From Ceratodon purpureus (lineage: Eukaryota > Streptophyta > Bryopsida > Pseudoditrichales > Ditrichaceae), in NCBI GenBank assembly GCA_014871385.1, contig CM026426.1:106303281-106367280 (forward strand): a stretch of DNA of 64,000 bases, read 5' to 3'. Shown piece by piece: positions 21,975 through 63,962 of this stretch; positions within the stretch are counted from its first letter, which is position 1, and each line of letters begins with the position of its first letter. The translations under genes were made by a program, and so were the position numbers. The notes below the pieces were generated by a model, which saw only the letters and a list, made by a program, of their open reading frames with translations, made no database searches and had not been told where the DNA came from.

Positions 21975-22395
21975 TAGTCATGTGGATAGTTTTCTTTACT
22001 AAAATTGGCAATGACTGCAAAGTAACATAGTCACGTGGACAGTTTTCTCTACTAAAACTGTTGTTAAAGTTGCAAAATAACATAGTCATGTGGACGGTTT
22101 TCTTTACTCAATGTGGTAATAATATTCCAAAGTAACATAGTAATGTGGACAGTTTTCTTTACTAAAATTGGCAATGATTGCAAAGTAACATAGTCATGTG
22201 GGCAATTTTCTCTACTAGAAATGTTACTAAAGTTGCAAAGTAACATAGTCATGTGGACAGTTTTCTTATCCAAAATTGGTAATGATTGCAGAGTAATATA
22301 GTCATGTGGACACTTTGCATTACTAAAATTGTTAATAAAGTTGCAAAGTAACATAATCATGTGAACAGTTTTCTTTACTCAATGTGGTAATGAGT
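21975..22395. repeat. Tandem minisatellite with AGTCATGTGGACAGTTTTC core
   Basis: About nine copies of a ~48-base unit: agtcatgtggacagttttc, then ttactaaaattg, then a variable ~15-base spacer and gcaaagtaacat. Alternate units differ, giving a ~96-base higher-order period. It lies just 3' of the CACTA transposase (minus strand) and shares the AGTCA motif with the other subterminal blocks, so it is probably the transposase-binding subterminal array. Confidence 0.75.
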
Positions 22396-22401
22396 TGCAT
22401 T

Positions 22402-28639: not shown

Positions 28640-28647
28640 TTGGACAC
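28640..28647. other. Target site duplication, left copy
   Basis: TTGGACAC, repeated directly at 50505-50512. Two more matching bases (AC) precede it on both sides, so 8 to 10 bases are possible. Eight is preferred because both element ends then begin GTGGA. Confidence 0.88.
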
Positions 28648-28751
28648 GTGGAAAGTTCGTACGTGAGCGGAGAGCGGTGAGCGCAGAATGGAGAGCACAG
28701 AATTGACAATTAGGAAAATTTTCAAAAGCAAAGTAGACCCTATAACCGTGG
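28648..28751 (+). repeat. Left terminal inverted repeat of the 21.9-kb MULE
   Basis: Begins GTGGAAAGTTCGTAC, then GAGCGG-type repeats (28663-28686), a second GGAGAGCACAGAAT block, and accctataaccgtgg at 28737-28751. Related ends are at 10050, 54611 and 58185 (plus orientation) and 50504 (inverted). Confidence 0.88.
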
Positions 28752-29403
28752 AAAATTACTAAATTAAGGCTTAATTTTGACACTTTTTTTAGAAAAAGAG
28801 TATATTACCGTGGAAATTAGGATTATCTGTGGTAAGAATTTATTACGTTTGTTCTCTAAGATACAAATTAGGGCTGATGTCATGATGACGTCATGCATAC
28901 ATTCCTTTAGATTAGTCATGGGTTTAGGCAAGATACAATGATCAGGCGTTGAGTTTTAGATCAAACAAATAATTCTTTCATAGGATTATGTAAATGCACA
29001 AGGGAAAAAACAAATTTGAAAGAACGTAAAGGAGGCAAGGTTTGAAAACTTCCTGGAATATTTCAAAAGTCAGGTATAGTATCTTAACTGCTGAAACCAA
29101 GATATACCTTGTAAGAGTCCTTGTCTTCATCGAAGATTACTCTCTCTTCCTAGGCAGCAAAGCATCTTCATTTGAGTGATAGAAGTAGGAGATTTTCATC
29201 ATGAAACAACACTTGGTAAGCAAGGTTCCAGAGAAGGAGGTCACTCTTGGTTTCTTGAGCTTGTCTCTAGGTGGCGTATTTGGATAGTGACACAGTCCTT
29301 GGCATGCTGTGCTGTATGCGAAGGTAGCGTAGGAGTTCGGGGATGTCAATCTACAAGCTTGAGTGTAACGTTTTAAGACTACAACAATTCAGTGTGTTGC
29401 GCG
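28752..29403. other. Left subterminal noncoding region of the MULE
   Basis: AT-rich with no recognised gene. It could contain the promoter of the small ORF that begins at 29404. Confidence 0.45.
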
Positions 29404-29775
29404 ATGCCGAAGGTGTGTAATGCGAGATCGAGGAGGACGAGAGCGGCTGTAGGTTTGCCCCCAAAGGCACCGGCGAGTTATGAGGAGCTGCGGCCGTGGC
29501 TGCTGGAGGTGGAGCGCGCCAGGGAACGAGGCATGGACCTGCCACCGTTTAGGCACATCGGAAGCCTCCATGTTGGTGAAGGTGAATGGCGTTGGACAGT
29601 GCTTTGTACCAATGAGCTTCTCCGTATTATGGAGTTGTCCCTAATCCCGTATCCCTTGCTATCGAACGTCGATGACAATCCAGTTGTTCAGCTGCCCGAA
29701 GTGATCATATCGGATGGCGAAACTTGCTGGTTTGATATGGACAAGAGTTGGACTGTATATCCTTCGAAGGATTAG
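29404..29775 (+). CDS. Small hypothetical protein near the left end of the MULE
   Basis: ATG at 29404 (MPKVCNARSRRTRAAVGLPP), 123 residues, stop at 29773-29775. The codon-like composition is clearly richer in GC than the flanking AT-rich DNA. It has a basic N-terminus, then a mixed sequence with several Trp residues (RPWLLEVERARERG, EGEWRWTVLC, TCWFDMDKSW). Not recognised. It lies inside the element, convergent with the 3' end of the ParB-methyltransferase-like gene, and may be another element gene, but no second copy was seen in this window. It could also be a captured host fragment. Confidence 0.5.
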   Translation: MPKVCNARSRRTRAAVGLPPKAPASYEELRPWLLEVERARERGMDLPPFRHIGSLHVGEGEWRWTVLCTNELLRIMELSLIPYPLLSNVDDNPVVQLPEVIISDGETCWFDMDKSWTVYPSKD

Positions 29776-30326
29776 TACTGTGAAGTGTAGTGGGGTGTTC
29801 GAATACATTCCTTTAGATTTGGTCCCTTATTGGATCTAGATACGAGTATTCCACCATGATGGTTTTAGATAATATAGACGATTCTAGGAATAAGACAACT
29901 CGAAACCAACTAAAAGAGATGGTCTTAAAAGTACGTGGAATATTTCACAGTGCGTGTAGAATAATGGAGTAGCAGAAACCAAGATGTACACCAAGTCAAG
30001 AATAGGTAACATGGCTATGCAAATGTGGGATTTTGAATGAGTAAAATATAAATAACAACGCAATATTATTTTTGAGCCTTTCTTTTGTAACATTTCACTC
30101 TTCATATTATATTTTGAGCATTACAGTTGTGACATTTCATCCTTTACAAACACGGAGACAAAATGGATATGAGAATCATAACAAGTTTAGGTTTAGGGTA
30201 GTAGAGTAGACGAAGGATTACCCAATAAGCTCCAATTAAATTAAATCAAATCCAATGAAAACAACAATAGACCGAAGCCTCCTTCAAACTCACAACATGC
30301 TACAGTAGCTACTTTCACTCTCAGAA
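29776..30326. other. Spacer 3' of the methyltransferase-like gene
   Basis: AT-rich. Contains an imperfect direct duplication of about 40 bases at 30068-30148 (gcctttcttttgtaacattt and gcattacagttgtgacattt). No gene recognised. It probably holds the converging 3' UTRs. Confidence 0.4.
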
Positions 30327-33300
30327 CTAGATGACTCTGAATCTCCTTCTACCGCCTCTGTCCTCTGTGTAGTCCAGAAGTATGAAAGGCTGAATCGGGC
30401 TGGAATGAAGACGCCACGATGGAGTGGACACTGATGTTGGCCCACGTGGCGGTGTTGCTGAAACTACTCTGCAATAGAGAACCGATTGTGGTTAGATCGA
30501 GTACGTAGAGCTGGAAAGAGAAGTAATGATTGGATAATTTGAACAAAGAATAGAAGACTTACACCACTTATCAGGTCTTGGTCTCTTTGGAGGCGCTTCG
30601 CCTGTTGCTGCCGGCCTTGGATGTTTAGGAGGGCCCATGGCGGATGGTTTGAGAAGGGCGTTGAATATGGCTTTGTCCTCCTCAAAAGCGAGAATGTGAC
30701 GACCAATAGCCTGGCAAGCCTTGATGGAGGCCCCTGAAACTCGGAGAGAAACAAAGAAATGAGAAAATGTGGTAAAAACGAGAAGAATAATTAAGCAGAG
30801 ATACGTATGAATAGTTACCTGTCCCTGCATTCCAGTCGAGGACTATGTCGCCGGGCTTCGACAGCTCCTCAATTATGCCCTGCATCATCTCAAGGGATTT
30901 CTCCCTTGGGCCTCTCCACGGCACCTCCCCATTCATGAGCTGCGATTCCACATCGGTGAAGTTGAAAATGGCATCACTCTCGGTAATGTTGAGACTCCCA
31001 TGAATCAACTCGGATTTCTTTGTCTGGAAGGAGAAAGTACTGCCACTACGAACGTAGACGCGAATCCAGAACCGCATAGTCTGCAGTGAAGCAAAACTAG
31101 TGAGTAAAATGAAGCGGAAGGGTTATCAGTAAGTAAAGAGAAGGGTATGTTTAGGAAAAGTACCAAGTTCTCGGGGTTCGCAGGAGAAGTGAGGCCGAGG
31201 ACATTGACGCCCCACCAGTCCTTGAAGAGCACGTAGTCACCACCAGCAGCTTCTTCGTCGATATCCTTAGCCAGCTTCTGATCAGTGTTGTAGATGAGGC
31301 AGATGGCACCATCTTTCTGCAGGTATTTATCTGCAAAATGGAAGATGTCGTACACATAATCCTTCTCGCGAGAGTTCCAAGGCGGAATACTCGTGGGGGG
31401 AACGGAAACGGATGGGACGAGAAGATTCTCAGGGATGTCGGCAATGATCAAGTCGACTCCCAGATGGTCCTCTTGTTTGCACCGGTCCGGAACTTCGTTT
31501 TCGCGGCCTGCTCCAAACTTGAGGAATGAAAAAAGCACAGTTAGAAACTACAAAGCGAGTAGAGGTGGCAGAATCCATTAAATGTCAAAATATCAGAACA
31601 TACCTTGCGAATGAAGTCTTGAGTCTTGATCCAATCCGGGTCGCCACCTTTTCTCTCCTGTCTCTTATTTCGCGGTAACATGGAATCCACAGATGAGTTG
31701 AAGACGGAAACATGTGTGGAAATTGAAGCTCCAGCGGAAGAAGTTGTTTGAGGATATAGTTTGGCCTTCCTCTGCTCAAGGAGACCTCTGGTGATCTCCG
31801 AAGCACTGATCGAGGAAGGAGCCGGCGAAGAAGCTGGAGAAGGGTTCGTAACGACAATACCCGGAGAGGGCTCTGGTGCCTTCTCAGTTGGCGCGGAAGA
31901 CTCCGCACCAGTTTGCTGTGATGCCTCTGACCGAGAACGCAAAGATTTCAGTCGCCTTCCTCTCCCTCTCTTCGGTGGTGGAGCAGAATACTGATCCTGC
32001 TCTCCTACAGGACCTTCTACATCGTCCACGGAGTCCTCCACCACAACCTCACCCCCATCGTGTAGAGTCTTGACGTCTGCCTCTGAGTCAATCGTGAAAC
32101 CACGAGAGCAATCAAGATACCAGCATCCCTCAAGCAAGTGAGGATTTCTGTATTTTTTCAGCTGTTTCGGAGAGTACATACACTGGTCCGAGGTTCTCGA
32201 CGTCCAAGCAGTAAAGTAATTAGGCAGTTGCTGAACTTTAAGTGCCCCCTTCAGAAGAAGCTCTCGCTTAAAGTACCTAAGGAAACCAATATGGAGAAGG
32301 TTAGTATGTGAAAGATATGTAGAGCTCATTATGGAATTTGAATATGATTAAATGAAGTAACTTACCGGTAAGTAACCCGCTTGACAACCTCAGCAGTTCC
32401 AGGGAATTTAGCGAAGTTGGATTTCTTGTCGAACACCTTCTCAGCATTCTTTCCAACGAATGTAGGGAAGGCCTTGTCCCATAATAGAATACGTGAACTC
32501 TCGACAAAGTCGCCCGGCTCTTGTACATCAGGAAATGCCTTCCAATTGATAACGAGGTTCTCCGCCTTGCATATGCCCTCGACTTCGTTGATGACGGCTT
32601 CCTCCAACTAATATACAGAATATATATCAGTAGTAGTAAGGAAGAAATGAGGGACAGAAGAAAGGTTCAAGTCATGAATGAAGAACGCTTCATGAATGAA
32701 ACTCACCCCGGCCCAGAACGAAGCTTTGTTCAACCATGGGTCGAAATCCGTGTCCTTGAATTCTGATGGCGGAAATCTGTAAGACTTTCGGGAAGTCGGA
32801 GATGAGTTCCACCACCTCAACCAACGAGCCTTGTACTTGGCCTCAACGGCCGCTGGAACAACCTTCTGAAGCTTATCGAGTGACATCTCAGGTTTAGAGT
32901 TGTCACTGTAATGCCGATTAATCTGCAACAAGTAGAGAAGATTTAGGAAATATGAATACAAATATAAAGTAGTGAAACGAAATACTGAACTCAACCACGG
33001 TAAGGGTATCACCTCATTGAGGAAGTCGTCACCGTTCTTGGGATTTGCAATTGTCAAGTACTTGGTGAAGTCCTTCTTCTTAATGGATTCGACCATGTTG
33101 TTTGAAGCCGCAGTCATGGCATCCCAAACACCTGCTGCGGTTTGGTCCTCAATGGCTGTTTTCTCCTTGTAGATTCTTGCAGCTTCGTCTGAGGCCGCCA
33201 CGACTTCTCTCTCGAGAACATAGTTATCCCCCTTTTTAGTACAGAGACGAACAAAAATCAATTGTCGAATGGAAGTGTGAGAAAGGATGGATCAAGTGCT

Positions 33301-36300
33301 TACACGATAAAGAAACGCGATGAAGACTTTGGTTGGCAAGGTAAACCAAGATAGAGTATGTGGTTTATTATTCAAAGATATTTGATACTCCTCTGCTGTG
33401 AGCAGATCCTTGAATTCCTCCAATTTCATCACACCGAAGGAGCGAATTCGGAAAAGTTTAGCCGGAAGATTGCTCTTTACATGATCATTTTCTGTAGACC
33501 TGCACAAATAGACAGTAGTTAGTAAAATGCATAAACATCAAGACGTCTGGCCAAAATAGAGGGGATTCATATTCTCACCAATTGATGTCGTGCATGGCAT
33601 GAAGAAGGTTTCCCACATGTCCGCGTGGGTCGAGAACAATGCAATGCACAGAGATGTGCCACGCAGGATCATCGCTGTGATGGTTGTTGATATGTCTGTA
33701 CCAGGCAGCAAGGCGATGGTTACCTTCCCAGACATAGAACATCTTCCCAGAAAACTCCTTCCAATCCGAGTCCGCCAAGAGCTCATCCTCGAAAGCATCA
33801 TTCGCTTTTTGCCAACAAGGGCTCCACTGAGCCTTGGTCTCCTCAGTGACATCGGCTGTCTTCTCTTCGTGGTTGTACATGGAAATGTACATGACTCTGT
33901 CTCCATCTCTGTAGCCTTTGACAAACTCTCGCTCCAAATGTTGAACTCCCATTTCTCCCACAGGTCGCACTTTTGCCATAGAGAGCATTCTGCAAAGGGG
34001 AACTAGGATACGTGACTTTGACGTTGGATGAATTCGGACCTTGTTGATGACGCCATTGGAGTCTTGCTTGTGTTGTACCCGATGTCCCAATTCACTGTCA
34101 ACTACATTCGTCAATTCACTAGGACAAGAGGGCGCTGGCAACGTATCCTGTGTCTGGGTTACCTGCCATAAGTCATACATTATGAGGATCAAAGGAAATC
34201 AAACAATTGTGAAGATAGGTAGAACAATAGCTTCCTGTACTCATACATCTCCTTTGAATAACAAATCATAAGCCACAGTAGGAAGTACTACAGGGGCCAC
34301 TATGTACGTGGAGCACGGCTATAGTACTCCCTAGCCTGTCTACAGTTCCAATGACGGCGCCTCCTCCAAAAACGCCTGGTCTGCAGGACAAGGCAAGGCA
34401 GTATCGCCGGTAGGGCGAAGACAACATGGGCTGGCCTCCTCACTCTAATAGGCGAGGAAGGAGAAGGTGGAGACATCGGCGGGGTACCAAGTCGTGGAGA
34501 AGTAGGCATGTAGCCCGGGGATGTAGGCTCATAGACAGGGGACGTAGGCATGTACTGAGGAGAGTGGACCTCGAGAGGTCCACTACCTAAACCTACAGGG
34601 TTTCCTAAATCACACCTACATAAATGGGGCTGATCAAATGAATCCGAGAGGTCGGAAACATTGATTATTGAGATCGGAGAACATATGGACAAGGGTGCAT
34701 CTGAGAATACCTACAAGCATAGAGACGAAGACAATGTCAATTTACCATTTGAGTTTTCAAAACTACTTCAGAAAGTTTTAATAAAAATGAATTGTTGAAT
34801 ACAAAAGCAAATAAGATTAAAATTACCTCAGTTTCTGCAGGTGTTGGACCATCACCTTCAGTCGCAGTGAATTGATCCGTGAACTCCTACAACACAGATA
34901 GAAAACAAATTATAAGAAATCATAAAACAAGAACAAAGAAAAAGTTTATATGAAAACAAATAATCTCCCCATCTACATCCATGACTAAACTCGCGGCCTT
35001 GCCCTCCCTTGTATCCACTGCCCACACATCCCCCATCACTCCCCTCTCCCCCCTCCCCCCTTTCGGCCCCGAATCCTCATCTACTGCCCTCACTTGAATC
35101 CCCGCATCCCCACCCAATGCACCTACTGCCCACACATCCCCCATCACTCCCCTCTCCCCCCTCCCCCCTTTTGGCCCCGAATCCCCATCTACTGCCCTCA
35201 CTTGAATCCCCGCATCCCCACCCAATGCACCCACTGCCCGCACATCCCCCATCACTCCCCTCTCCCCCCTCCCCCCTTTCGGCCCCAAATCTCCATCGAC
35301 TGCCCTCACTTGAATCCCCGCATCCCCACCCAATGCACCCACTGCCCGCACATCCCCCATCACTCCCCTCTCCTCCATCCCCCCTTTCGGCCCTGAATCC
35401 CCATCTACTGCCCTCACTTGAATCCCCGCATCCCCACCCAATGCACCCACCGCCCACACATCCCCCATCACTCCCCTCTCCGCCCTCCCCCCTTTCGGCC
35501 CCGAATCCCCATCTACTGCCCTCACTTGAATCCCCGCATCCCCACCCAATGCACCCACTGCCCACACATCCCCCATCACTCCCCTCTCCCCCCTCTCCCC
35601 TTTGGGCCCCGAATCCCCATCTACTGCCCTCACTGGAATCCCCGCATCCCCACCCAATGCACCCACTGCCCACACATCCCCCATCACTCCCCTCTCCTCC
35701 CTCCCCCCTTTTGGCCCCGAATCCCCATCTACTGCCCTCACTTGAATCCCCGCATCCCCACCCAATGCACCCACTGCCCGCACATCCCCCATTACTCCCC
35801 TCTCCCCCCTCCCCCCTTTCGGCCCCAAATCTCCATCGACTGCCCTCACTTGAATCCCCGCATCCCCACCCAATGCACCCACTGCCCGCACATCCCCCAT
35901 CACTCCCCTCTCCGCCCTCCCCCCTTTCGGCCCCCCGAATCCCCATCTACTGCCCTCACTTGAATCCCCGCATCCCCACCCAATGCACCCACTGCCCACA
36001 CATCCCCCATCACTCCCCTCACGCCCCTCCCCCCTTTCGGCCCCGAATCCCCATCTACTGCCCTCACTTGAATCCCCGCATCCCCACCCCAATGCACCCA
36101 CTGCCCACACATCCCCCATCAACTCCCCTCACGCCTCTCCCCCCTTTCGGCCCCGAATCCCCATCTACTGCCCTCACTGGAATCCCCGCATCCCCACCCT
36201 ATGCACCCACTGCCCACACATCCCCCATCACTCCCCTCTCCCCCCTCCCCCCTTTTTGGCCCCGAATCCCCATCTACTGCCTCACTTGAATCCCCGCATC

Positions 36301-39300
36301 CCCACCCAATGCACCCACTGCCCACACATCCCCCATCACTCCTCTCTCCCCCCTCCCCCCTTTGGGCCCCAAATCCCCATCTACTGCCCTCACTGGAATC
36401 CCCGCATCCTCACCCAATGCACCCACTGCCCACACATCCCCCATCACTCCCCTCACGCCCCTCCCCCCTTTCGGCCCCAAATCCCCATCTACTGCCCTCA
36501 CTTGAATCCCCGCATCGCCACCCAATGCACCCACTGCCCACACATCCCCCATCACTCTCCTCTCCTCCCTCCCCCCTTTCGGCCCTGAATCCGCATCTAC
36601 TGCCCTCACTTGAATCCCCGCATCCCCACCCAATGCACCCACTGCCCACACATCCCCCATCACTCCCCTCTCCTCCCTCCCCCCTTTCGGCCCCCAATCC
36701 CCATCTACTGCCCTCACTTGAATCCCCGCATCCCCACCCAATGCACCCACTGCCCACACATCCCCCATCACTCTCCTCTCCGCCCTCCCCCCTTTCGGCC
36801 TCGAATCCCCATCTACTGCCCTCACTTGAATCCCGGCATCCCCACCCAATGCACCCACTGCCCACACATCCCCCATCACTCCCCTCTCCCCCCTTCCCCC
36901 TTTTGGCCCCGAATCCCCATCTACTGCCCTCACTTGAATCCCCGCATCCCCACCCAATGCACCCACTGCCCACACATCCCCCATCACTCCCTCTCCCCCC
37001 CCCCTTTGGCCCCGAATCCCCATCTACTGCCCTCACTGGAATCCCGCATCCCCACCCAATGCACCCACTGCCCACACATCCCCCATCACTCCCCTCTCCC
37101 CCCCCCTTTCGGCCCCGAATCCCCATCTACTGCCTCACTGAATCCCCGCATCCCCACCCAATGCACCCACTGCCCACACATCCCCCATCACTCCCCTCTC
37201 CCCCTCCCCCTTTGGGCCCCGAATCCCCATCTAACTGCCCTCACTGAATCCCGCATCCCCACCCAATGCACCCACGCCACACATCCCCCATCACTCCCCT
37301 CCCCCCCTCCCCCCTTTCGCCCCGAATCCCCATCTACTGCCCTCACTTGAATCCCCGCATCCCCACCCAATGCACCCACTGCCCACACATCCCCCATCAC
37401 TCCCTCCCCCCCTCCCCCCTTTCGGCCCCGAATCCCCATCTACTGCCTTCACTTGAATCCCCGCATCCCCGACCCAATGCACCCACTGCCCACACAATCC
37501 CCCATCACTCTCCCTCCCTCCCCCTCCCCCCTTTCGGCCCTGAATCCCCATCTACTGCCCTCACTTGAATCCCCGCATCCCCACCCAATGCACCCACTGC
37601 CCACACATCCCCCATCACTCCCCTCTCCCCCCTCCCCCCTTTCGGCCCGAATCCCCATCTACTGCCCTCACTTGAATCCCCGCATCCCCACCCATATGCA
37701 CCCACTGCCCGCACATCCCCCATCACTCCCCTCTCCCCCTCCCCCCTTTCGGCCCCGAATCCCCATCTACTGCCCTCACTTGAATCCCCGCATCCCCACC
37801 CAATGCACCCACTGCCCCACACATCCCCCATCACTCCCCTCTCACGCCCCTCCCCCCTTTCGGCCCCGAATCCCCATCTACTGCCCTCACTTGAATCCCC
37901 GCATCCCCACCCAATGCACCCACTGCCCGCACATCCCCCATCACTCCCCTCTCCGCCCCTCCCCCCTTTCGGCCCCGAATCCCCATCTACTGCCCTCAAT
38001 GGAATCCCCGCATCCCCACCCTATGCACCCACTGCACACACATCCCCCATCACTCCCCTCTCCGCCCTCCCCCCTTTCGGCCCTGAATCCGCATCTACTG
38101 CCCTCACTTGAATCCCCGCATCCCCCACCCAATGCACCCACTGCCCACACATCCCCCATCACTCCCCTCTCCTCCATCCCCCTTTCGGCCCCGAATCTCC
38201 ATCTACTGCCCTCACTTGAATTCCCGCATCCCCACCCAATGCACCCACTGCCCACACATCGCCCATCACTCCCCTCTCCGCCCTCCCCCCTTTCGGCCCC
38301 GAATCCTCATCTACTGCCCTCACTTGAATCCCCGCATCCCCACCCAATGCACCTACTGCCCACACATCCCCCATCACTCCCCTCTCCCCCCTCCCCCCTT
38401 TTGGCCCCGAATCCCCATCTACTGCCCTCACTTGAATCCCCGCATCCCCACCCAATGCACCCACTGCCCGCACATCCCCCATCACTCCCCTCTCCCCCCT
38501 CCCCCCTTTCGGCCCCAAATCTCCATCGACTGCCCTCACTTGAATCCCCGCATCCCCACCCAATGCACCCACTGCCCGCACATCCCCCATCACTCCCCTC
38601 TCCTCCATCCCCCCTTTCGGCCCCGAATCCCCATCTACTGCCCTCACTTGAATCCCCGCATCCCCACCCAATGCACCCACCGCCCACACATCCCCCATCA
38701 CTCCCCTCTCCGCCCCTCCCCCCTTTCGGCCCCGAATCCCCATCTACTGCCCTCACTTGAATCCCCGCATCCCCACCCAATGCACCCACTGCCCACACAT
38801 CCCCCATCACTCCCCTCTCCCCCCTCTCCCCTTTGGGCCCCGAATCCCCATCTACTGCCCTCACTGGAATCCCCGCATCCCCACCCAATGCACCCACTGC
38901 CCACACATCCCCCATCACTCCCCTCTCCTCCCTCCCCCCTTTTGGCCCCGAATCCCCATCTACTGCCCTCACTTGAATCCCCGCATCCCCACCCAATGCA
39001 CCCACTGCCCGCACATCCCCCATCACTCCCCTCTCCCCCCTCCCCCCCTTTCGGCCCCAAATCTCCATCGACTGCCCTCACTTGAATCCCCGCATCCCCA
39101 CCCAATGCACCCACTGCCCGCACATGCCCCATCACTCCCCTCTCCGCCCTCCCCCCTTTCGGCCCCGAATCCCCATCTACTGCCCTCACTTGAATCCCCG
39201 CATCCCCACCCAATGCACCCACTGCCCACACATCCCCCATCACTCCCCTCACGCCCCTCCCCCCTTTCGGCCCCGAATCCCCATCTACTGCCCTCACTTG

Positions 39301-42300
39301 AATCCCCGCATCCCCACCCAATGCACCCACTGCCCACACATCCCCCATCACTCCCCTCACGCCTCTCCCCCCTTTCGGCCCCGAATCCCCATCTACTGCC
39401 CTCACTGGAATCCCCGCATCCCCACCCTATGCACCCACTGCCCACACATCCCCCATCACTCCCCTCTCCCCCCTCCCCCCTTTTGGCCCCGAATCCCCAT
39501 CTACTGCCCTCACTTGAATCCCCGCATCCCCACCCAATGCACCCACTGCCCACACATCCCCCATCACTCCCCTCTCCCCCCTCCCCCCTTTGGGCCCCAA
39601 ATCCCCATCTACTGCCCTCACTGGAATCCCCGCATCCTCACCCAATGCACCCACTGCCCACACATCCCCCATCACTCCCCTCACGCCCCTCCCCCCTTTC
39701 GGCCCCAAATCCCCATCTACTGCCCTCACTTGAATCCCCGCATCGCCACCCAATGCACCCACTGCCCACACATCCCCCATCACTCTCCTCTCCTCCCTCC
39801 CCCCTTTCGGCCCTGAATCCGCATCTACTGCCCTCACTTGAATCCCCGCATCCCCACCCAATGCACCCACTGCCCACACATCCCCCATCACTCCCCTCTC
39901 CTCCCTCCCCCCTTTCGGCCCCCAATCCCCATCTACTGCCCTCACTTGAATCCCCGCATCCCCACCCAATGCACCCACTGCCCACACATCCCCCATCACT
40001 CTCCTCTCCGCCCTCCCCCCTTTCGGCCTCGAATCCCCATCTACTGCCCTCACTTGAATCCCCGCATCCCCACCCAATGCACCCACTGCCCACACATCCC
40101 CCATCACTCCCCTCTCCGCCTTCCCCCTTTTGGCCCCGAATCCCCATCTACTGCCCTCACTTGAATCCCCGCATCCCCACCCAATGCACCCACTGCCCAC
40201 ACATCCCCCATCACTCCCCTCTCCCCCCTCCCTTCTTTGGGCCCCGAATCCCCATCTACTGCCCTCACTGGAATCCCCGCATCCCCACCCAATGCACCCA
40301 CTGCCCACACATCCCCCATCACTCCCCTCTCCCCCCTCCCCCCTTTGGGCCCCGAATCCCCATCTACTGCCCTCACTGGAATCCCCGCATCCCCACCCAA
40401 TGCACCCACTGCCCACACATCCCCCATCACTCCCCTCTCCGCCCTCCCCCCTTTCGGCCCCGAATCCCCATCTACTGCCCTCACTTGAATCCCCGCATCC
40501 CGACCCAATGCACCCACTGCCCACACATCCCTCATCACTCCCCTCTCCTCCCTCCCCCCTTTCGGCCCCGAATCCCCATCTACAGCCCTCACTGGAATCC
40601 CGGCATCCCCACCCAATGCACCCACTGCCCACACATCCCCCATCACTCCCCTCTCCGCCCTCCCCCCTTTCGGCCCCGAATCCCCAACTACTGCCCTCAC
40701 TTGAATCCCCGCATCCCCACCCAATGCACCCACTGCCCACACATCCCCCATCACTCCCCTCACGCCCCTCCCCCTTTTCGGCCCCGAATCCCCATCTACT
40801 GCCCTCACTTGAATCCCCGCATCCCCACCCAATGCACCCACTGCCCACACATCCCCCATCACTCCCCTCACGCCCATCCCCCCTTTCGGCCCCAAATCCC
40901 CATCTACTGCCCTCACTTGAATCCCCGCATCCCCACCCAATGCACCCACTGCCCACACATCCCCCATCACTCTCCTCTCCTCCCTCCCCCCTTTCGGCCT
41001 CGAATCCACATCTACTGCCCTCACTTGAATCCCCGCATCCCCACCCAATGCACCCACTGCCCGCACATCCCCCATCACTCCCCTCTCCGCCTTCCCCCTT
41101 TCGGCCCCGAATCTCCATCTACTGCCCTCACTTGAATCCCCGCATCCCCACCCAATCCACCCACTGCCCACACATCCCCCATCACTCCCCTCTCCTCCCT
41201 CCCCCCTTTCGGCCCGGAATCCCCATCTACTGCCCTCACTTGAATCCCCGCATCCCCACCCAATGCACCCACTGCCCACACATCCCCCATCACTCCCCTC
41301 TCCGCCCTCCCCCCTTTCGGCCCCGAATCCCCATCTACTGCCCTCACTTGAATCCCCGCATCCCCACCCAATGCACCCACTGCCCACACATCCCCCATCA
41401 CTCCTCTCTCCTCCCTCCCCCCTTTCGGCCCCGAATCCCCATCTACTGCCCTCACTGGAATCCCCGCATCCCCACCCAATGCACCCACTGCCCACACATC
41501 CCCCATCACTCCCCTCTCCCCCCTCCCCCCTTTTGGCCCCGAATCCCCATCTACTGCCCTCACTTGAATCCCCGCATCCCCACCTTATGCACCCACTGCC
41601 CACACATCCTCCATCACTCCCCTCTCCTCCCTCCCCCCTTTCGGCCCCGAATCCCCATCTACTGCCCTCACTTGAATCCCCGCATCCCCACCCAATGCAC
41701 CCACTGCCCACACATCCCCCATCACTCCCCTCTCCGCCCTCCCCCCTTTCGGCCCCCAATCCCCATCTACTGCCCTCACTTGAATCCCCGCATCCCCACC
41801 CAATGCACCCACTGCCCACACATCCCCCATCACTCCCCTCTCCCCCCTCCCCCCTTTTGGCCCCGAATCCCCATCTACTACCCTCACTTGAATCCCCGCA
41901 TCCCCACCCAATGCACCTACTGCCCATACATCCCCCATCACTCCCCTCTCCCCCCTCCCCCCTTTTGGCCCCAAATCCCCATCTACTACCCTCACTTGAA
42001 TCCCCGCATCCCCACCCAATGCACCCACTGCCCACACATCCCCCATCACTCCCCTCTCCCCCCTCCCCCCTTTTGGCCCCGAATCCCCATCTACTACCGT
42101 CACTTGAATCCCCGCATCCCAACCCAATGCACCTACTGCCCATACATCCCCCATCACTCCCCTCTCCCCCCTCGCCTCTTTCGGCCCCGAATCCCCATCT
42201 ACTGCCCTCACTTGAATCCCCGCATCCCCACCCAATGCACCCACTGCCCTCACATCCCCCATCACTCCCCTCTCGTCCCTCCCCCCTTTCGGCCCCGAAT

Positions 42301-44610
42301 CCCCATCTACTGCCCTCACTTGAATCCCCGCATCCCCACCCAATGCACCCACTGCCCGCACATCCCCCATCACTCCCCTCAGGCCCCTCCCCCCTTTCGG
42401 CCCCGAATCCCCATCTACTGCCCTCACTTGAATCCCCGCATCCCGACCCAATGCACCCACTGCCCACACATCCCTCATCACTCCCCTCTCCTCCCTCCCC
42501 CCTTTCGGCCCCGAATCCCCATCTACAGCCCTCACTGGAATCCCGGCATCCCCACCCAATGCACCCACTGCCCACACATCCCCCATCACTCCCCTCTCCG
42601 CCCTCCCCCCTTTCGGCCCCGAATCCCCATCTACTGCCCTCACTTGAATCCCCGCATCCCCACCCAATGCACCCACTGCCCACACATCCCCCATCACTCC
42701 CCTCTCCCCCCTCCCCCCTTTTGGCCCCGAATCCCCATCTACTACCCTCACTTGAATCCCTGCATCCCCACCCAATGCACCCACTGCCCGCACATCCCCC
42801 ATCACTCCCCTCTCCCCCCTCCCCCCTTTTGGCCCCGAATCCCCATCTACTACCCTCACTTGAATCCCCGCATCCCCACCCAATGCACTCACTGCCCACA
42901 CATCCCCCATCACTCCCCTCTCCTCCCTCCCCCCTTTCGGCCCCGAATCCCCATCTACTGCCCTCACTTGAATCCCCGCATCCCCACCCAATGCACCCAC
43001 TGCCCACACATCCCCCATCACTCCCCTCTCCTCCATCCCCCCTTTCGGCCCCGAATCCCCATCTCCTGCCCTCACTTGAATCCCCGCATCCCCACCCAAT
43101 GCACCCACTGCCCACACATCCCCCATCACTCCCCTCTCCTCCCTCCCCCCTTTCGGCCCCGAATCCCCATCTACTGCCCTCACTTGAATCCCCGCATCCC
43201 CACCCAATGCACCCACTGCCCGCACATCCCCCATCACTCCCCTCACGCCCCTCCCCCCTTTCGGCCCCGAATTCCCATCTACTGCCCTCACTTGAATCCC
43301 CGCATCCCCACCCAATGTCCAATCCCCATCTAATGCCCAATCTGTCGAAGTTGCAAATGCGAATGCAATCCGAACCTCACAATGCGCGACTTGTTGCATT
43401 GCAATTTCTGAATCCCGAGTCCAATACCTTGCTACATTCAACAAACCCACAACAACAAAAGCTTCGATCAGATCTCTTACCTCCTCCGTCGCTGCATATC
43501 GATCCGTGTCGATACCCGCAGCGTCCATCTCCTCCACACCACGGTCTTCTCCACTAGCAGCCATTCTCCCCTCAGAAGCCTCCACTTGCGATGCCGCGAC
43601 CTTGAGTGTGTAAGTGCCCTTACTCTTGACCCTCCCTCGACTACCTCGACCTCTCCCTCTCCCTGTTACATCTAACTCTCTCCCTCGATCCGCGACCTCA
43701 CCCTCTTCACACTCGATGTCGACTTCGGGCCCCGCCATCCTATCTTGCGAATGATCTTCGTCTATACTCCTTTCCGATGGACTTCCCGGGTCCCCTCGTC
43801 CCGCCTGTCTTGCAGCTATTGCTTCGCCTCCTTCGCCCGCCTCCATGATTTCGCGTCTCGCTCTCCGAGCCACTTTTATCAAAATCTCAGTATCTGAATC
43901 CTCGCCCGCATCCACTTCTGGCGTCTTTTCCTCTGCAACGTCTTCCTCAATTCTAAACCAATCGACAATCTGCGCATATATTTGAGCAATGACCAGTATT
44001 ACTACTCGGCTCTCCTATTTTAAACAATCATTCAGTTCATGACGCATCAAATATTCATTGCAGTAAAAAATAATCCCGCAACCAAGACAACACGTAAAAC
44101 TTAATATAACTCTACTAATATACATACTTTACATGAAGCATATTTAAATGTATCAATTATGAAACTTACCACATCCTTGTTAGACTGGTCGCCCGACTGT
44201 GTATCCGTCCCTCTTGTCGAACACTCCTTGAATCCGAAAGAAAGTTGTGGTGTCTCCAAAGTCGGACAGCAATTGAACCCTAATTCTTCTGTCATCTCTA
44301 TCTGTTTTTCCCCTCTACTTCCTACCTCATGCTCCTGATGCTCAACTATGTTGTCCACTAAAATCTCTTCTTTTACCTCTACAATGGACTCTAGAATGAG
44401 TTTACGAATGCTGCAAAATTTAATTGCCAAAGGCAGCCCAGCGCCTCGAACCTTTAGAGGTGCACTCAAGTGGTTGCCTGTCGACTTCGCCTTTCTACGT
44501 GATTCTCTCCTCTTCCTCGCTCTCCTATTCGTAAAATCTGTACCACCTGGTTTACTTCTAGGTCTAGGAGTGACATAAGTGGAGGGAGCTGACCCTCCAC
44601 TCTCCTTCAT
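30327..44610 (-). CDS. ParB-like/DNA amino-methyltransferase-like protein, 14 exons, MULE cargo
   Basis: Minus strand. Exons: 44610-44170, 43969-43292, 34886-34827, 34710-34444, 34162-33579, 33499-33304, 33231-33013, 32922-32707, 32607-32366, 32276-31604, 31517-31164, 31080-30819, 30733-30563, 30466-30327. All joins are AG/GT and in phase, giving 1500 codons without a stop. Order: basic N-terminus; acidic and RG-rich region; CTD-like YMPTSPVYEPTSPGYMPTSP (residue ~446); ParB/Srx-like WEGNHRLAAW (~628); low-complexity linker; methyltransferase-like domain with motif IV position DLIIADIPEN (D1219), motif X-like REKSLEMMQGIIEELSKPGD and motif I DWNAGTG (1392-1398) followed by ACQAIGRHILAFEED. 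IV before X-I is the beta-class order. Motif IV is DIPE, not DPPY, so catalysis is doubtful. The donor of exon 2 and the last exon are the least certain. Possible roles: DNA binding, SAM binding, or epigenetic control of the element. Confidence 0.82.
34492..34554 (-). other. Three RNA polymerase II CTD-like heptads
   Basis: Within exon 4 of the ParB-methyltransferase-like gene: YMPTSPV, YEPTSPG, YMPTSPR, followed by the SP-rich PPMSPPSPSSP. Consensus CTD heptads are YSPTSPS; here position 2 is M or E, and Y1, P3, T4, S5 and P6 are kept in all three. Function is inferred only: such heptads could recruit CTD-binding factors or kinases. Confidence 0.7.
35009..43314. repeat. 108-bp minisatellite, about 77 copies
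   Basis: Uninterrupted tandem array of a 108-base, C-rich (plus strand) unit containing cttgaatccccgcatcccca, ccaatgcacccactgcccac and ccgaatccccatctactgcc. The unit is a multiple of three and lacks stops in several frames, so very long but meaningless frames appear on both strands. In the gene model it lies in the intron between exons 2 and 3 of the ParB-methyltransferase-like gene. Read on the minus strand each unit keeps the donor-like CAA|GTGAGG that ends exon 2. A minus-strand TAA at about 41585 blocks translation through the whole array. Confidence 0.97.
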
Positions 44611-45211
44611 GTGTCTAACTAACGAGTGAACTCTCCTCACAATATAGCTCTCCTCCTTACTTCCCTCTAACTTATATATCCCAAACCTTCAACCCCCCTG
44701 ACTCAGCCCTAAATACTTACCTTATTCTAAACCTACTTAAATTAATGAAAACTATAATTAATTGCATTTTGAATTAAAGTTGATGAGATCAATCTATATT
44801 GGAAGAGAATAAACCAAGCCCACAACATATAAAAAGATTTGAATTAAGCACTTGAATACTTGTATTAAATATGGATCCAATTGACGACTCACTCTAATCT
44901 CACCAAACTTCACATCGAATAGAATCAATCCCACGATTCAATTATTAAATGAGTAGTTCTAAAACTCCTACCCTTTTAATTTGGGCCTGCAGAAAGCAAC
45001 ATTCTAATTAGTTAGCGCCGTCTCTCTTTAATCATACATTCGTTACGTAGCAGAATGAATCATTACCTAGTCGCCCACATGGACATTCCAATTTGAATAA
45101 AAAGATCAACAACGATGCATCATTCCTCTCACTTTGCTCTCGCGATACTGCTTTGCTAGTACACTCCCTCTTTTCCTTTCTTCCTCTAGTATCTCTGAGT
45201 TGCCTGCGAAT
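44611..45211. promoter_or_regulatory. Divergent promoter region between cargo gene and transposase
   Basis: About 600 bases separate the start codon of the ParB-methyltransferase-like gene (minus) from that of the transposase (plus). It is AT-rich at 44740-44900 with a TATA-like tatatccc on the minus side near 44675. The head-to-head layout suggests shared control. No specific motif is claimed. Confidence 0.5.
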
Positions 45212-48200
45212 ATGGGGATGGTCTGTCTGTACGCCCAAGGCATGGGCACCCCTCTTAGGTTTCGCGTAGATGACGATGGTCTAGCTACGGTGTCCTCTCT
45301 TCGCCTCAGTCTCAGGTTCCATTTTCGTGAGGATTCCATCAGTATAGAGGAGGAGATCTTTGATGACGTTACTGCCGAGGTTACCCACACCCTCGGGCAA
45401 CCTTCAGTGAGAGATGAGAACAACATGTTGCAGTGGAGACTCCTTCCTGGATCCTATAGAGTCTATGGTCTTACTGATTCTCTGATGGCTGCATCCACTG
45501 AGATCCTCACCCCCCGTCGCTCTTCTACTTGCACAATTCAGACTCCCTTACCTCGTGATGTCAAGGTCAAAGTCGAGCCTGGTACCGAGACTTCAGATGT
45601 AGAGAAACCTCCTCCGACCGTCATATCTCTCTCTTCTGATGCCGAAGTCAATCCCGTCAAGTTGGTGCCTAAGCTCCACGCAGATGCTCCTCCTTCCAAT
45701 GTCTCTCCTCCATTGTCCCAGGTCACAGTTAGCATTGTTCCGCTCCTTAAAGAGATTGCTAAGACGCGTGGGTCAAAAAACATTCTAAAGAAGATTGACT
45801 ATTCCACTATTAAACACGAGAGAGTAGAGTACTTGCCTGCAAAGTTTGATGGTCCGGTTCTTTTTGAGTTGCCCCCAGCTGCTGCAGGATCCTCTAAGGT
45901 CGCCGCCAAGTCAATGCAGGGAATGGACAAACGATACGACGGACACGTGTGGACCAAGACCATCACAACAAACATCAAGAACGACTTCGGACTGTCTTTT
46001 CGAAGTTCCACCTGCGTCGGATGGCTGCGCTGCACCAACGAGGAGTGTGACTTTCTGAAGCGTGTTCCCAAGATCTTCGATGTTAACGAGACTGAGTTCG
46101 ATGGGTGTACCCTGCAAGCTTTTCTCATGGATCAGCCTCCTCCATCTGAATCTACGCTGGTGTGCAAGGTATGTAAAGAACCTCCATCATGTGTAGCTAC
46201 ATGCGAGGCTAAGATTTATTACGTTGTGGGCAAAGCAAATCAGACTAGAGCTTGTATTCACCTAGGAACACATGATCATCCAGTGAAAGTTGGAGACTAC
46301 AGAGACTCTAAAGCAGAAATTAGTAGCTTAATAGAAGAGCAGGTAGAGATGAACAACAAAGCAACGAAGAGCGCCGTTGTCTTGGAGGCGAGCAAACTCC
46401 TCATCGGGAGCTACCTGCTACAGCCCGAGGATGCACCACCGAGGAAGCTGACGATGGAGGAGCTGGTTCCTGTTCTGGATCGATGCAAAGATATGGCGTC
46501 GCCCAACATCCGCAACAAAGTCGCCACCTTCAAAAAATTCAAAAGGTACGGAATCATGGACGGTATCACCAAGCTCCGTGGTAACAGTCTCTGGGCGTAT
46601 GTCCAGGAGAATAGGTTTCCTGGTCAGGGAGCTATGCGTGACAAAGTCTTCGTCCTCAAGATGTCGGAGGTCGGGCCGGGAAGTGGTGTCGACTTGGTCA
46701 GCCGAATGCAAGCTGGTGGCGACTTGGAGAACGCATGGATCATGTTCGACCATGTAAAACGCGTCAAAGACTGGTCGACCATGGCGTGCCATGTGTACGA
46801 CGCCACCTACTGCCGCGTGATGACAATCGCCACTTGCGACATGCAGTCCGAGGACACGGAGGCCCAGCTCGTCTTCTGGAAAAACCTGAACCTGGTCATG
46901 GAGATCAATGGCGTTGCAGCGCCGAACTTCAAGGGGTTCATGGCGGATAACGCACAAGCGAATTGGAATGCAGTGCGAATCCTTTACGGCAATGGCAACA
47001 AAGAGGACCCAATGGAGGACTGGGAGAGGTCGTGCTTGTTCCACTGGACTCAGAACATGGTGGCGTATACGCAGAAGCACTTCCCCGAAGAACTCTGGGA
47101 ACAGCACAAGAAGATGTGCACTCAGTACAAGAATGCTACCAGCATGGCAGAGGCGGAAACTCTGTACCACGCGTTGCGAGCATGGTGGGCATCCACCGGG
47201 GTCGTTGGCGAGAGCAGGCTCATCAAACTCGATCAATGGCTGTCATTCTGGCACCACCGCTTCCGCCAGTGGGGGGGATTTATGACCGAGGTATAATCTT
47301 TGCACTCTGTTTTGATGTTTTTCATACTGGTTTCCTAGCCCTAACCTACAAAACTCTAATCCGTGAATCTAACGGCACCTACTGTCAAATCTGCAGAAAT
47401 TCACGAAAGAAGAACTTACAGAGATGCCCACCTGTAACCTCGCCGAAACAGTTCACAACAAGTGGCTCCAAGCTTCTGGAAACAACGGGAACGACCTTTA
47501 CGTTGCTACCGTGGACGATTTCGTTCGGGCTTTTCTTCAGGTTGTTAACTACTACCAGTTCCTCAAAGGTGACGTCGGCGGAACAGGACCGTCCAAGAAG
47601 GAACTCAGGCTCCGGATGGCTGAACGCAACGCGAAGAAATGGGGAAATCCTACACTGCTCGATAAGCCCATGCTCGATATGCCAGGCGCGGATGAGTTCT
47701 GCACCCGTCAGCCAATCATGCCTGGAGCGGAAGTCTTCGGTTCACAGAAGCGAAAAGCCGACGTCCCCATCGGAGCTGACGAGGAGTCTCATCGCCCGGA
47801 CAAGACAAACTTCTCACGCCCAAGAGGCCCAAGACGTGCCGTCAGGGCTCGCCCTATGCAGATGCCCGTCATTGTGGAAGTCGACTCCGAACACGACACC
47901 GAGGTACAATGTATTCAACCTCCTGCCCAGGAAGTTGATTCCCCTTTACCTTCACCTGTGAACAAGGGCGGCATTCGCCATGTCAACGCGGTTGAGGAAA
48001 CGAAGGTCGACGTGAAGGAATGGCACATTTCCAGACTTCACAAACTTTCTGCGAAGTGCTGCTGGGCCCAAAGAGCTGAAACGAAGAAGAAGTGCACTGA
48101 GAGAATCGTCAGGGGGCCCCTTTGCACAGCTGCACCGACCTACACTAGGCTGTGGACTAACTATCGCAGGAACACAGTCGAGAAGACAGAGTTCTTCTTC

Positions 48201-48890
48201 TGCTCCGACGATATTGAGCGCTGCGTGAAAGGCTCTAAGCGCAAGTGGGTAGCGCACTACTCAAAAGACCAGGAATTCCCCTCCATTCCTGAGGTCTGGC
48301 CAGTGAAACTAGGTACTAACCTAAAACTGACTGAGATTCTTGCCCTCGAAGCAGCAGGCTTTCAACTTCCGCCGAAGAAGCCGGTCTCCCCAAGACGCCT
48401 CTTCTCCTTTGCCCCGCCCCCTGCGAATCTCAACTCGGTGCCAGTCCCTGCAGACGCTGACCGCTACCCAGGCAAGAGAGACGGCAAGATGGTGAAGCGC
48501 ACTGCCACTCGTCCCAATCCGGCGCAGCGACTATCCATGGGCTCCTCCGAGTCTCTCAAAGCGCGCCTCCGTTCCGTCACCATGATACCTGAGCCAGGCC
48601 ACGGTTGCATCATTGGGCTGGATTCGGGCGTCGCTCCACACATCACACGTTACCAGATTACCATCAGCTCTTACCCTGGTTGCACTTGCCCAGCATTCAA
48701 GAAGACGATGACTACGTTCAAAGGCAGGACTCAGTTCACATATTGTAAGCACCTTTACTACATACTCTTGAAGGTCTGCAACCGCGATCCCGAGGCCGAG
48801 CTTTTCATCCATGCGCCTACCTTTAGCTTCAACGAGGTCAAGCTTCTCCTAGAGAGTGGAATCTTGCGTCACCCCTTGGCGAAGAAGTAG
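45212..48890 (+). CDS. MULE transposase with zinc cluster, DDE core and SWIM finger
   Basis: Two exons, 45212-47290 and 47397-48890 (intron donor GAG|GTATAA, acceptor ctgcag), 1190 residues, no stop. ATG at 45212 (MGMVCLYAQGMG) is preferred because the related older copy aligns from about there; an upstream ATG at 45134 adds 26 poorly conserved residues. An N-terminal unknown domain is followed by a Cys/His-rich WRKY/GCM- or FLYWCH-like zinc cluster (~270-390). The MULE DDE region reads VYDATYCRVMTIATCD (D~530), GFMADNAQANWNAV (D~579) and SCLFHWTQN (C608/H611). The C-terminal SWIM finger is CTCPAF (C1122, C1124) ... YCKHLYYIL. The enzyme cuts and joins element ends. Intactness suggests it may be active. 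Confidence 0.93.
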
Positions 48891-49144
48891 GTAGCCCTCC
48901 TACTTTAGAACTGCCGTTTCCACAATGGCCATTTGTCACGTAGTGAATGATTTTAGTAATATACCATGTACTAAGTCAGCTATTCAGAAGCTGTATTGAC
49001 TTTTTCATTATATTAAAGGCTCTGTCGTTCGCATTGATTGCACTCTATTTCAATACATTCTATCTTGAAGAAGTGTAATATATACCTCGTATCCCCTGAC
49101 ATGTACCATTTATTACGGCAAACATATACTTGTTATTAGATGTC
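48891..49144. terminator. Convergent 3' region of transposase and accessory gene
   Basis: About 250 bases between the two stop codons. AT-rich, with a run resembling plant polyadenylation signals (tcattatattaaaggc near 49005). No gene. Confidence 0.35.
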
Positions 49145-49597
49145 CTAATCTTGGAACCTAACACGTTTAGGGTTGCCCACTATAGTATCAGCAGGACTGC
49201 CAGCCTCTGACTGTACTACCGGACAAACTACATTTGCATTCACTTTCGTTCCAACACTTGGCAAGTGTCCTTGGTATGAACGTTTCAGCAATGGCCCACC
49301 TCCCCGCCTCCGATTCACTGATTCCCTCGAATAGGTTCCCCTTGGGATCTTTCCAACCTTGGAGTATGCATGAGTTTGCAAAGGCACATCTGCGTTCTCC
49401 TCCAGCACTCTGATATCATCCGAATTTTCTGAACGTGGAGGGTCAGCTCTTACATCCGGTTGTACGTCAACATCCGTTGTCAAAGGACGCCCTTGGCTGT
49501 TGGCCATCACCTCTTCTTTGTCCTCGACCTCAACATATGGTTGAAATGGACAAACATCGTCAGCAAGTGATACAACAATATCTCTAACGTCTTCCAT
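49145..49597 (-). CDS. Conserved accessory protein of the MULE
   Basis: 150 residues on the minus strand, convergent to the transposase. Start MEDVRDIVVSLADD, acidic first half (VDVQPDVRADPPRSENSDD), then a conserved core HAYSKVGKIPRGTYSRES, a basic RRRGGGPLLKR stretch, VVCPVVQ and a C-terminal PKRVRFQD. The core recurs in the partial copy at 12715-12978, in the same position after the transposase, which argues that it is an element gene comparable in position (not in sequence) to second genes of other MULEs. Function unknown. A possible upstream exon (49671-49745, peptide DDNFRINEKPVFKGAKHHLH) has good splice signals, but I could not make its phase fit. Confidence 0.72.
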   Translation of the reverse strand: MEDVRDIVVSLADDVCPFQPYVEVEDKEEVMANSQGRPLTTDVDVQPDVRADPPRSENSDDIRVLEENADVPLQTHAYSKVGKIPRGTYSRESVNRRRGGGPLLKRSYQGHLPSVGTKVNANVVCPVVQSEAGSPADTIVGNPKRVRFQD

Positions 49598-49745
49598 AAC
49601 TGCTGTCCCGCACTACGGAAAAGAGCTTCACAAAACACCAACAGAAAAGAGGAAGAGACATACAATAATCCCACCTTAAATATCCGTGAAGATGATGCTT
49701 GGCGCCCTTGAAAACCGGCTTTTCATTGATTCGAAAGTTGTCGTC

Positions 49746-50309
49746 CTAAAATGAATGAAAAAGGATGAGGGTTGAGCACAAGTCATTTAGCATTTAAAAT
49801 TTAAAAATTAAAATTAAAGTATAAAAGCAAAAAAAAAAAAAAAAATTATCAAAAATGAAATTAGAAAAAGAAAAGTAAACAAAAGGAAAAATAAATATTA
49901 AGGTTGAAAAAAATATGAAGGCGATTGAGAAAATCAAAGAGAAAATAAAATGAAAGAGAATCAAAGGAAAGGACTCTTTTGACCCCTTTAACAAGATAGA
50001 TAGAATAATGGAAGTTAATATAAAAAATAAAAGATAAAAAGTTGTAAGGCATGTAGACTATGGCGGATGAATTCTAGCAATGTTAAGAAAATGTTAGGAA
50101 ATTAAATGTTACTTGATTCCTTTTAAGAGGTTCAATACGAATACATTTTAAGTAGTAATTTGCATATAAATTTGAGGAGATAAGGGAAATTAATGTATGC
50201 CTGAACTAGTTAGAAGGAGCTGGAGCATAGTAATTGGTGCACGCTAAAAAATTAATCACCAAGAAAAGAGAAAACGAACTACAAATTCAATGAAAATACT
50301 GTAATTAAT
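49746..50309. other. Right subterminal AT-rich region of the MULE
   Basis: Very AT-rich, with a poly-A run near 49830-49846. No gene recognised. Confidence 0.5.
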
Positions 50310-50504
50310 CCACGGTTATAGGGTCAATAAAATTACTAATATTAGTAACTTTCCAAAATATACTAAAAATATTTGAATCTTCTAATTTTATAGTTTATTT
50401 TTAGTAAACAAAATTGCTATTTTAAGGTTTTGTCCCCCATTCTGTGCTCTCCGCTCTCCAAATCTGCGCTCACCGCTCTCCGCTCACGTACAAGCTACGT
50501 CCAC
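50310..50504 (-). repeat. Right terminal inverted repeat of the 21.9-kb MULE
   Basis: Read on the minus strand from 50504 inward: GTGGACGTAGCTTGTAC, then GTGAGCGGAGAGCGGTG and GGAGAGC blocks, then accctataaccgtgg (complement of 50310-50324). The 28 bases at 50464-50491 are an exact inverse of 28659-28686. Confidence 0.88.
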
Positions 50505-50512
50505 TTGGACAC
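50505..50512. other. Target site duplication, right copy
   Basis: TTGGACAC, direct copy of 28640-28647, immediately outside the right terminal repeat. Confidence 0.88.
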
Positions 50513-50620
50513 TGACAAGACACAAGAGCGTTACCGTCATCTTCCATCTGAAATGTAAGCGGAATTCAAAGACCATGCGCATAGAGAGTGGCTGTACCCG
50601 TAAACCCGACTGCGACCGGT
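50513..50620 (-). pseudogene. Older MULE transposase, N-terminal fragment
   Basis: Minus strand: LYAHGL, a TGA, then IPLTFQMEDDGNALVSCQC, where the intact transposase reads LYAQGMGTPLRFRVDDDGLATV. It continues without a gap into CPSFWIQYQEDTISIEEE at 28639 downward once the 21.9-kb element is removed. From the PL pair to the ED pair both proteins have 28 residues. This is the other half of the fragment at 27420-28639. Confidence 0.88.

Positions 50621-63954: not shown

Positions 63955-63962
<8 letters not shown>

Follow-up and report, generated by a model that had tools for sequence, protein, structure and literature searches.

A giant transposon, probably Mutator-like, with accessory coding parts, one of them methyltransferase-like, and copy-specific tandem arrays in the moss Ceratodon purpureus

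Introduction

The transposon Sola1-1_Ec32 of Ectocarpus is 21.5 kb long and carries, on the opposite strand, a gene for a 1104-residue protein with ParB-like and DNA methyltransferase parts (PMC12477816). According to the same source, transposons of green and red algae are known to encode similar ParB-methyltransferase proteins. Here, we analyse a stretch of 64,000 nucleotides of the moss Ceratodon purpureus (assembly GCA_014871385.1, contig CM026426.1, positions 106,303,281 to 106,367,280; hereafter the window), which holds a transposon of 21,856 bp. This element probably represents a full-length member of a family of cut-and-paste DNA transposons that are giant, abundant, recently active and, by their ends, Mutator-like. 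As Sola1-1_Ec32 is described (PMC12477816), the two share their giant size, a methyltransferase-domain accessory gene that runs opposite to the transposase (in the moss element a match to PF01555, E 3e-9), and a host whose haploid stage is long and which has a V sex chromosome. Yet, the transposase of Sola1-1_Ec32 belongs to another superfamily, Sola-1, and the moss element has an altered catalytic motif, a part resembling the C-terminal domain (CTD) of RNA polymerase II, a variable array and a ParB-like part at the level of a motif. This comparison is one of descriptions.

Mutator-like elements (MULEs) offer other precedents. In VANDAL elements, the targets of VANC proteins are said often to form tandem repeats, which vary from one related element to another and are also present in VANC introns (PMC5735166). 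VANDAL21 (Hiun) resembles the moss element in being a MULE with extra genes, in having intronic or non-coding tandem repeats that change between related elements, and in encoding an accessory protein with conserved and variable parts (PMC5735166). The moss element does have variable tandem repeats in non-coding parts, its array being intronic by prediction. It differs from VANDAL21, as described, in size and in its methyltransferase-like domain. Barley Abermu, a MULE of over 8 kb with three open reading frames (ORFs) that was called unusual, is similar in having three ORFs, one of them in opposite orientation, and a very high copy number, whereas the moss end pairs span 11-28 kb and the genes are others (PMC9168764). 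Outside transposons, Wolbachia phage WO has a protein whose methyltransferase domain matches the moss one (E 4e-3; 2e-7 for an uncultured phage) and which combines PF01555 with a ParB_N match just under its cut-off. However, the phage protein keeps the motif DPPY and its ParB part has no detectable similarity to the moss segment. The literature searched yielded no description of a methyltransferase in a moss MULE, but its coverage was partial and the negative is no proof of absence. Sola1 and VANDAL/VANC are the nearest precedents, and the moss accessory parts, with their altered methyltransferase motif and copy-specific arrays, represent a variation on this known theme.

Results

Ends, copies and insertion site

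It is certain that the window contains a transposon. Its limits and those of its target-site duplication were set by comparison with other copies:

28648..50503, no strand: whole transposon, 21,856 bp
28639..28647, no strand: left copy of the target-site duplication, CTTGGACAC, 9 bp
50504..50512, no strand: right copy of the target-site duplication, CTTGGACAC, 9 bp
28648..28689, plus strand: left terminal inverted repeat, imperfect, about 42 bp, including a 29-bp exact inverse run
50460..50503, minus strand: right terminal inverted repeat, from the inverse alignment of the ends and the genome matches of a 28-mer

The first-pass annotation had described an element at 28648-50504 flanked by an 8-bp repeat, TTGGACAC. 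The element is real, its left end stands and the repeat is present. Yet, the base preceding TTGGACAC is C at both flanks, and the right ends of other copies read NGGACG (N being variable) directly adjoining the duplication. Hence, the right end lies one base further in, at 50503, and the true length of the duplication is 9 bp. Left ends displayed for other copies read GGGGAAAG. Both ends literally start with GTGGA, as had been noted, but the right-hand G is part of the duplication. Similarly, the ends are inverted copies, but the exact run that had been given as 28 terminal bases is of 29 bases and begins 11 bases (left) or 12 bases (right) inside the ends. The subterminal block said to be common to both ends is indeed found at each, by direct reading and by alignment (accctataaccgtgg).

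The ends are abundant in the genome searched (362.5 Mb in 151 contigs, the window lying on a contig of 110,524,308 bp). Allowing at most one mismatch, a left-end 26-mer has 582 matches and a right-end 28-mer has 295, against none for either reversed control pattern. Left-end patterns are thus about twice as numerous as right-end ones, which may reflect many solo or diverged ends, or more variable right ends. We assessed pairing with the exact matches on contigs C1-C4 (93 left and 52 right). Among these, 29 of the 52 right ends have a facing left end at most 40 kb away, with spans of 10.9 to 27.8 kb (median 17.7 kb); the wrong-orientation control gives 1 of 52. The numbers of matches and the pairing, each set against its control, rule out that two unrelated ends came together by chance. 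We assembled ten elements, and the five with both ends located all have perfect 9-bp duplications (CTTGGACAC, TAATGTGGC, TCTTTGGAC, GGTAGTGAG and CTCATGGCG); the other five lack one end, either in the fetched sequence or within the mismatch limit. A genome search for paired ends and their duplications had been set as a test of the boundaries, and the boundaries passed it. The size had been remarked on as unusual for a MULE; 21.9 kb is normal within this family, whose paired ends span 11-28 kb.

A search with a 201-residue core of the transposase gave 2066 candidates. All 150 that were scored have 98-100% identity, and 131 of these lie in open frames of at least 690 residues (counted by eye). 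The family is hence young and large. The genome of Ceratodon purpureus is described as about 360 Mb in size, its U and V sex chromosomes each exceeding 100 Mb (PMC8000587), and we infer that the host chromosome of the window looks like a moss sex chromosome.

The element lies within an older relative of its own transposase:

28400..28638, minus strand: left flank, part of an older, dead transposase relative, from the joined-flank alignment
50513..50620, minus strand: right flank, N-terminal part of the older transposase, from the joined-flank alignment

Once joined, the flanks give a single frame that aligns straight across the junction to the element's own transposase with a score of 947 (37 and 38 for the other frames), in agreement with the earlier claim that the boundaries rejoin an older reading frame. 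The rejoined frame has stops, and this older copy is therefore dead. A fragment of a CACTA-type Tnp2 transposase lies beside it, at about 25500-25870 on the minus strand (PF02992, E 3.2e-20), and the flank is thus a nest of transposons. Elsewhere outside the element there is a minisatellite of 55-bp units at 21975-22399 and an AT repeat at 63875-63962.

The transposase gene

45212..48890, plus strand: transposase gene, predicted exons 45212-47290 and 47397-48890, about 1190 residues

Copies were aligned to the window, 14 on the left and 9 on the right, and show a coding signal in several stretches. We computed the ratio of nonsynonymous to synonymous substitution rates (dN/dS) for pairs of copies. 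Pairs with a synonymous rate (dS) of at most 0.05 or a proportion of synonymous differences (pS) of at most 0.02, and saturated pairs, were dropped before taking medians. The two transposase exons have median dN/dS of 0.14 and 0.16. Copy E32 (L035, L032) has an insert of about 3.65 kb in this gene. Window positions 47445-47452 are matched on both sides of the insert, which suggests another transposon with an 8-bp duplication.

Accessory coding parts on the opposite strand

The minus strand of the element holds two accessory coding parts:

34300..44610, minus strand: accessory part 1, predicted exons 44170-44610, 43481-43969, 34827-34886 and 34303-34710, stop at 34300-34302, 466 residues with CTD-like heptads
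34494..34554, minus strand: three RNA polymerase II CTD-like heptads, YMPTSPV YEPTSPG YMPTSPR (PF05001)
30467..34162, minus strand: accessory part 2, methyltransferase-like, nine predicted exons, stop near 30467
Predicted exons of part 2, minus strand: 33579-34162, 33304-33499, 33013-33210, 32707-32922, 32366-32607, 31604-32276, 31164-31517, 30819-31080, 30563-30733
30563..31517, minus strand: beta-class N6/N4 DNA methyltransferase-like domain (PF01555, E 3e-9), with DIPE, not DPPY, as motif IV
33701..33730, minus strand: possible ParB-like motif WEGNHRLAAW, a motif only, in the first exon of part 2

In part 1 the exon phases fit and the frame is open in the window, the exon joins being predicted, and three of its four exons have median dN/dS of 0.31, 0.68 and 0.12. 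Part 2 begins at a conserved acceptor, 34163. Its GT donors are present in all 14 copies save at one site in E22 and one in E26. Its AG acceptors are present in all copies save at one site in E22, when 33211 (AG in 14 of 14) is used as an acceptor. The eight exons of part 2 included in the analysis have median dN/dS between 0.09 and 0.31. Overall, with exons 34827-34886 and 30563-30733 left out of the runs, 10 of 11 accessory exons have medians of 0.09 to 0.31, and exon 43481-43969 has 0.68. For the five exons run in all phases, the wrong phases give 1.2 to 3.5. Judged by these ratios, the predicted accessory coding parts opposite to the transposase are under purifying selection. Exon 34827-34886 can also join part 2 in phase, with one open product of 1295 residues predicted in the window. 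Parts 1 and 2 may thus be two genes, or one gene spliced in two ways.

The methyltransferase-like domain is well supported by profiles: the match to PF01555 (N6/N4 DNA methylase) exceeds the Pfam cut-off with exons joined, and has an E of 1.8e-4 for a single exon. Among solved structures the best match is DpnA (E 1.4e-4), other adenine methyltransferases being weaker. Matches to phage DNA methyltransferases reach 4e-11 in PHROGs and 2e-7 in phage records, and six loci in viral contigs have 27-36% identity. The S-adenosylmethionine (SAM)-binding motif DWxAGTG is present in 12 of 14 joined frames; it is missing in E20, where the joined frame is broken, and in E25, which has DWNVGT. Active beta-class amino-methyltransferases carry DPPY or DPPW as catalytic motif. 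In the moss copies compared neither is found, and the motif aligned with DPPY is DIPE in all 14.

The other two segments are less clear. WEGNHRLAAW resembles what we take to be a ParB box, and the segment is called ParB-like only because the published algal analogue has that domain order. Pfam, NCBIfam, PHROGs and PDB gave it no support, and a scan of viral contigs with this possible ParB part found no relative. The heptads match the RNA polymerase II CTD repeat (PF05001) just under its cut-off of 20.3 bits in the window (E 8.1e-4, 20 bits) and just over it in copy E23 (20.6 bits). The last exon of part 1 has two to five heptads of the YxPTSP type in 12 of 14 copies; E27 and E31 were counted in an incorrect frame, and E31 has four in another one.

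Two smaller frames complete the coding repertoire:

29377..29772, plus strand: small gene or exon with no assigned function, found in 11 of 14 copies (the frame open in 9) and missing from 3
49148..49597, minus strand: possible small gene of 150 residues, the frame 49148-49612 being open in 7 of 9 copies

The plus-strand frame may be a gene, its median dN/dS being 0.17 (29398-29769). The region holding it, 29041-30160, has no match in E18, E20 and E32, nor in L019 and L029, which is a difference between subfamilies. The minus-strand frame 49148-49597 may also be a gene, with dN/dS of 0.42 against 1.04 and 0.86 in the other phases (E28 dropped). Yet, two non-coding controls gave 0.40-0.86 and the case for this second gene is therefore weak.

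Tandem arrays

35015..43317, no strand: minisatellite of 77 units of 108 bp, within the predicted intron that separates exons 43481-43969 and 34827-34886

All ten elements have a tandem array between blocks that match the window up to about 34.7-34.9 kb and again from about 43.7-44.4 kb. The units are of 108 bp in the window and E28, 171 bp in E18 and E32, a different 171 bp in E20, about 210 bp in E22 and E24, 212 bp in E26, 128 bp in E27 and 201 bp in E30. Apart from the matching pairs they are largely unrelated, with only short stretches in common. TCGGCYCCGAA occurs in four unit families, in one of them with a mismatch, a sharing weakly above that of shuffles (for 11-mers, four families were reached in 1 of 60). 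A palindrome, CCTACTGTCG..CGACAGTAGG, is found in the units of E22/E24, E26 and E30. Arms of such length appeared in none of 200 shuffles for E22 and for E26, and the palindrome is imperfect in E24 and E30. The class of array motif tracks the sequence group of the neighbouring exon and, since the two are linked, they are not independent evidence.

Two further ideas about the arrays were discarded. The array of E24 is not protein-coding, as no minus-strand frame of at least 70 residues covers its 212-bp units; in the window, E28 and E18, frames do cross the array. Nor is there a strand asymmetry common to all arrays: a strongly G-rich minus strand is limited to the window and E28 (skew 0.74), and skews in the remaining eight arrays are 0.005 to 0.25.

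Mosaic divergence among copies

The transposase half has 86-98% identity to the window and the left end 92-97% (E28 aside). Between 32.2 and 44.6 kb, identity is 57-85% in all copies but E17 and E28. A single mutation rate cannot account for both levels of identity, and the mosaic probably arose as lineages exchanged modules. On the left, no copy is closer to the window element than E28 (L028, L037), with 95-99% identity. In its right part the match to the window ends beyond about 46.9 kb, where identity is about 50%.

Discussion

We showed that the element has paired ends, perfect 9-bp duplications and accessory exons with low dN/dS. Several observations weigh against parts of our interpretation and are best stated together. 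No MULE profile matches the transposase significantly, either in Pfam or by hhalign, and this includes PF10551, which matches 93 other places in the genome. The gene structures are predictions. Compared with 11 phage ParB domains by hhalign, the ParB-like segment scores 15.3, and 3 of 20 shuffles score higher. In the array of the window, conservation of the core does not exceed that of the remainder of the unit (0.72 vs 0.79); in other arrays the equivalent comparison is confounded by anchoring at the motif and by phase drift. Finally, part 1 ends in a stop whose position is identical in 12 of 14 copies, E27 and E31 being the exceptions, and the end of the heptad exon has no in-phase donor. 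For these two reasons the heptad part is probably not fused to the methyltransferase part, and we rejected such a fusion from exon 34306-34709 to 33579-34162, for which there is no GT donor. The only internal in-phase GT that would permit a fusion is at 34443, in 12 of 14 copies. Under the rejected join, reading from the heptads onward, 6 of 14 copies reach the end without a stop; the remaining ones have stops, frame shifts or a differing exon edge (the edge was set too early).

The assignment to Mutator, which the first-pass annotation had made, is likely from the inverted ends and the 9-bp duplication but unproven from the transposase. One might suppose instead that this is a giant DNA transposon of another or a new superfamily that likewise makes 9-bp duplications, and that the label is wrong. 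The silence of the Pfam MULE profiles would then be natural, as would the result of comparing the transposase by hhalign with three aligned MULE sequences from this genome, whose probability of 0.1% leaves homology to PF10551 unsupported. Yet, we hold this to be unlikely. The order D, D, CxxH, E, SWIM, read by eye and without a score, is what we take to be the order of MULEs. SWIM zinc fingers are frequent in MULEs without being universal, and the transposase has a SWIM-like CxC...CxH finger, at a level below the cut-off (PF04434, E 0.098, 12.7 bits against 19.6). The terminal inverted repeats, although imperfect, extend over about 42 bp. MULE duplications are described as 8-11 bp long, with 9 bp and SWIM in VANDAL elements (PMC6446971), a range that includes the 9 bp found in all five elements with both ends. 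A Pack-MULE, i.e. ordinary ends carrying functionless fragments of host genes, would suit the large size, the several genes and the known tendency of MULEs to acquire gene pieces (PMC6431247). But the accessory exons are common to far-diverged copies (median dS 0.7-1.3 in several exons) and have low dN/dS in the right frame only. The examples cited in a review are of at most 7 kb (PMC6431247). Conservation between copies thus largely refutes this explanation already, and we regard it as very improbable.

The accessory parts raise a puzzle of their own. A working N6-adenine or N4-cytosine methyltransferase that marks the DNA of the element is suggested by the PF01555 match above the cut-off, by the SAM-binding motif in most joined frames and by the proposal that the algal proteins modify their own transposon DNA (PMC12477816). 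This is difficult to reconcile with DIPE in place of DPPY in every copy, and we consider such an activity doubtful. As for the arrays, there is a substantial chance, somewhat short of even, that they are neutral minisatellites growing in a long intron or spacer and bound by no protein of the element. Their units are mostly unrelated between groups and the core motif has no special conservation in the window. Against neutrality stand the position of the array, at one place in ten of ten elements, and the core TCGGCYCCGAA or the palindrome shared by otherwise differing units, a sharing which is itself weakly above shuffles.

How might such an element work? Its transposase would be a DDE enzyme with a SWIM-like finger that excises and inserts the element at its ends. 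By analogy with VANC in VANDAL elements, the accessory products may recognise DNA of their own element, the array being the likeliest target, and either oppose silencing by the host or bring in transcription. The methyltransferase-like domain would then be a binding or SAM-sensing module rather than a standard enzyme. One might speculate further that the family is the land-plant counterpart of the algal ParB-methyltransferase giant transposons. It would encode a catalytically dead, SAM-binding self-recognition protein whose ParB-like part binds the core or palindrome of its own array. A CTD-like companion protein, or splice form, would draw the transcription machinery, and each subfamily's pair of array and protein would protect only its own copies from silencing. 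We judge this full scheme less probable because the heptad part ends in a stop, and give it rather little credence, slightly less than an active methyltransferase or another superfamily.

DNA transposition is said to become less efficient with large cargo, and ectopic recombination is regarded as a restraint on giant elements (PMC6431247, PMC12477816). Despite such limits, this family, whose paired ends span 11-28 kb, has hundreds of end sequences, and long open frames in 131 of the 150 transposases scored. It may therefore serve as a test system for the question of whether the same type of methyltransferase-derived protein has been taken up across kingdoms and superfamilies to manage silencing. 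The proteins of its subfamilies and their arrays would also form a natural series, in which the co-evolution of a transposon recognition protein with its target could be tested.

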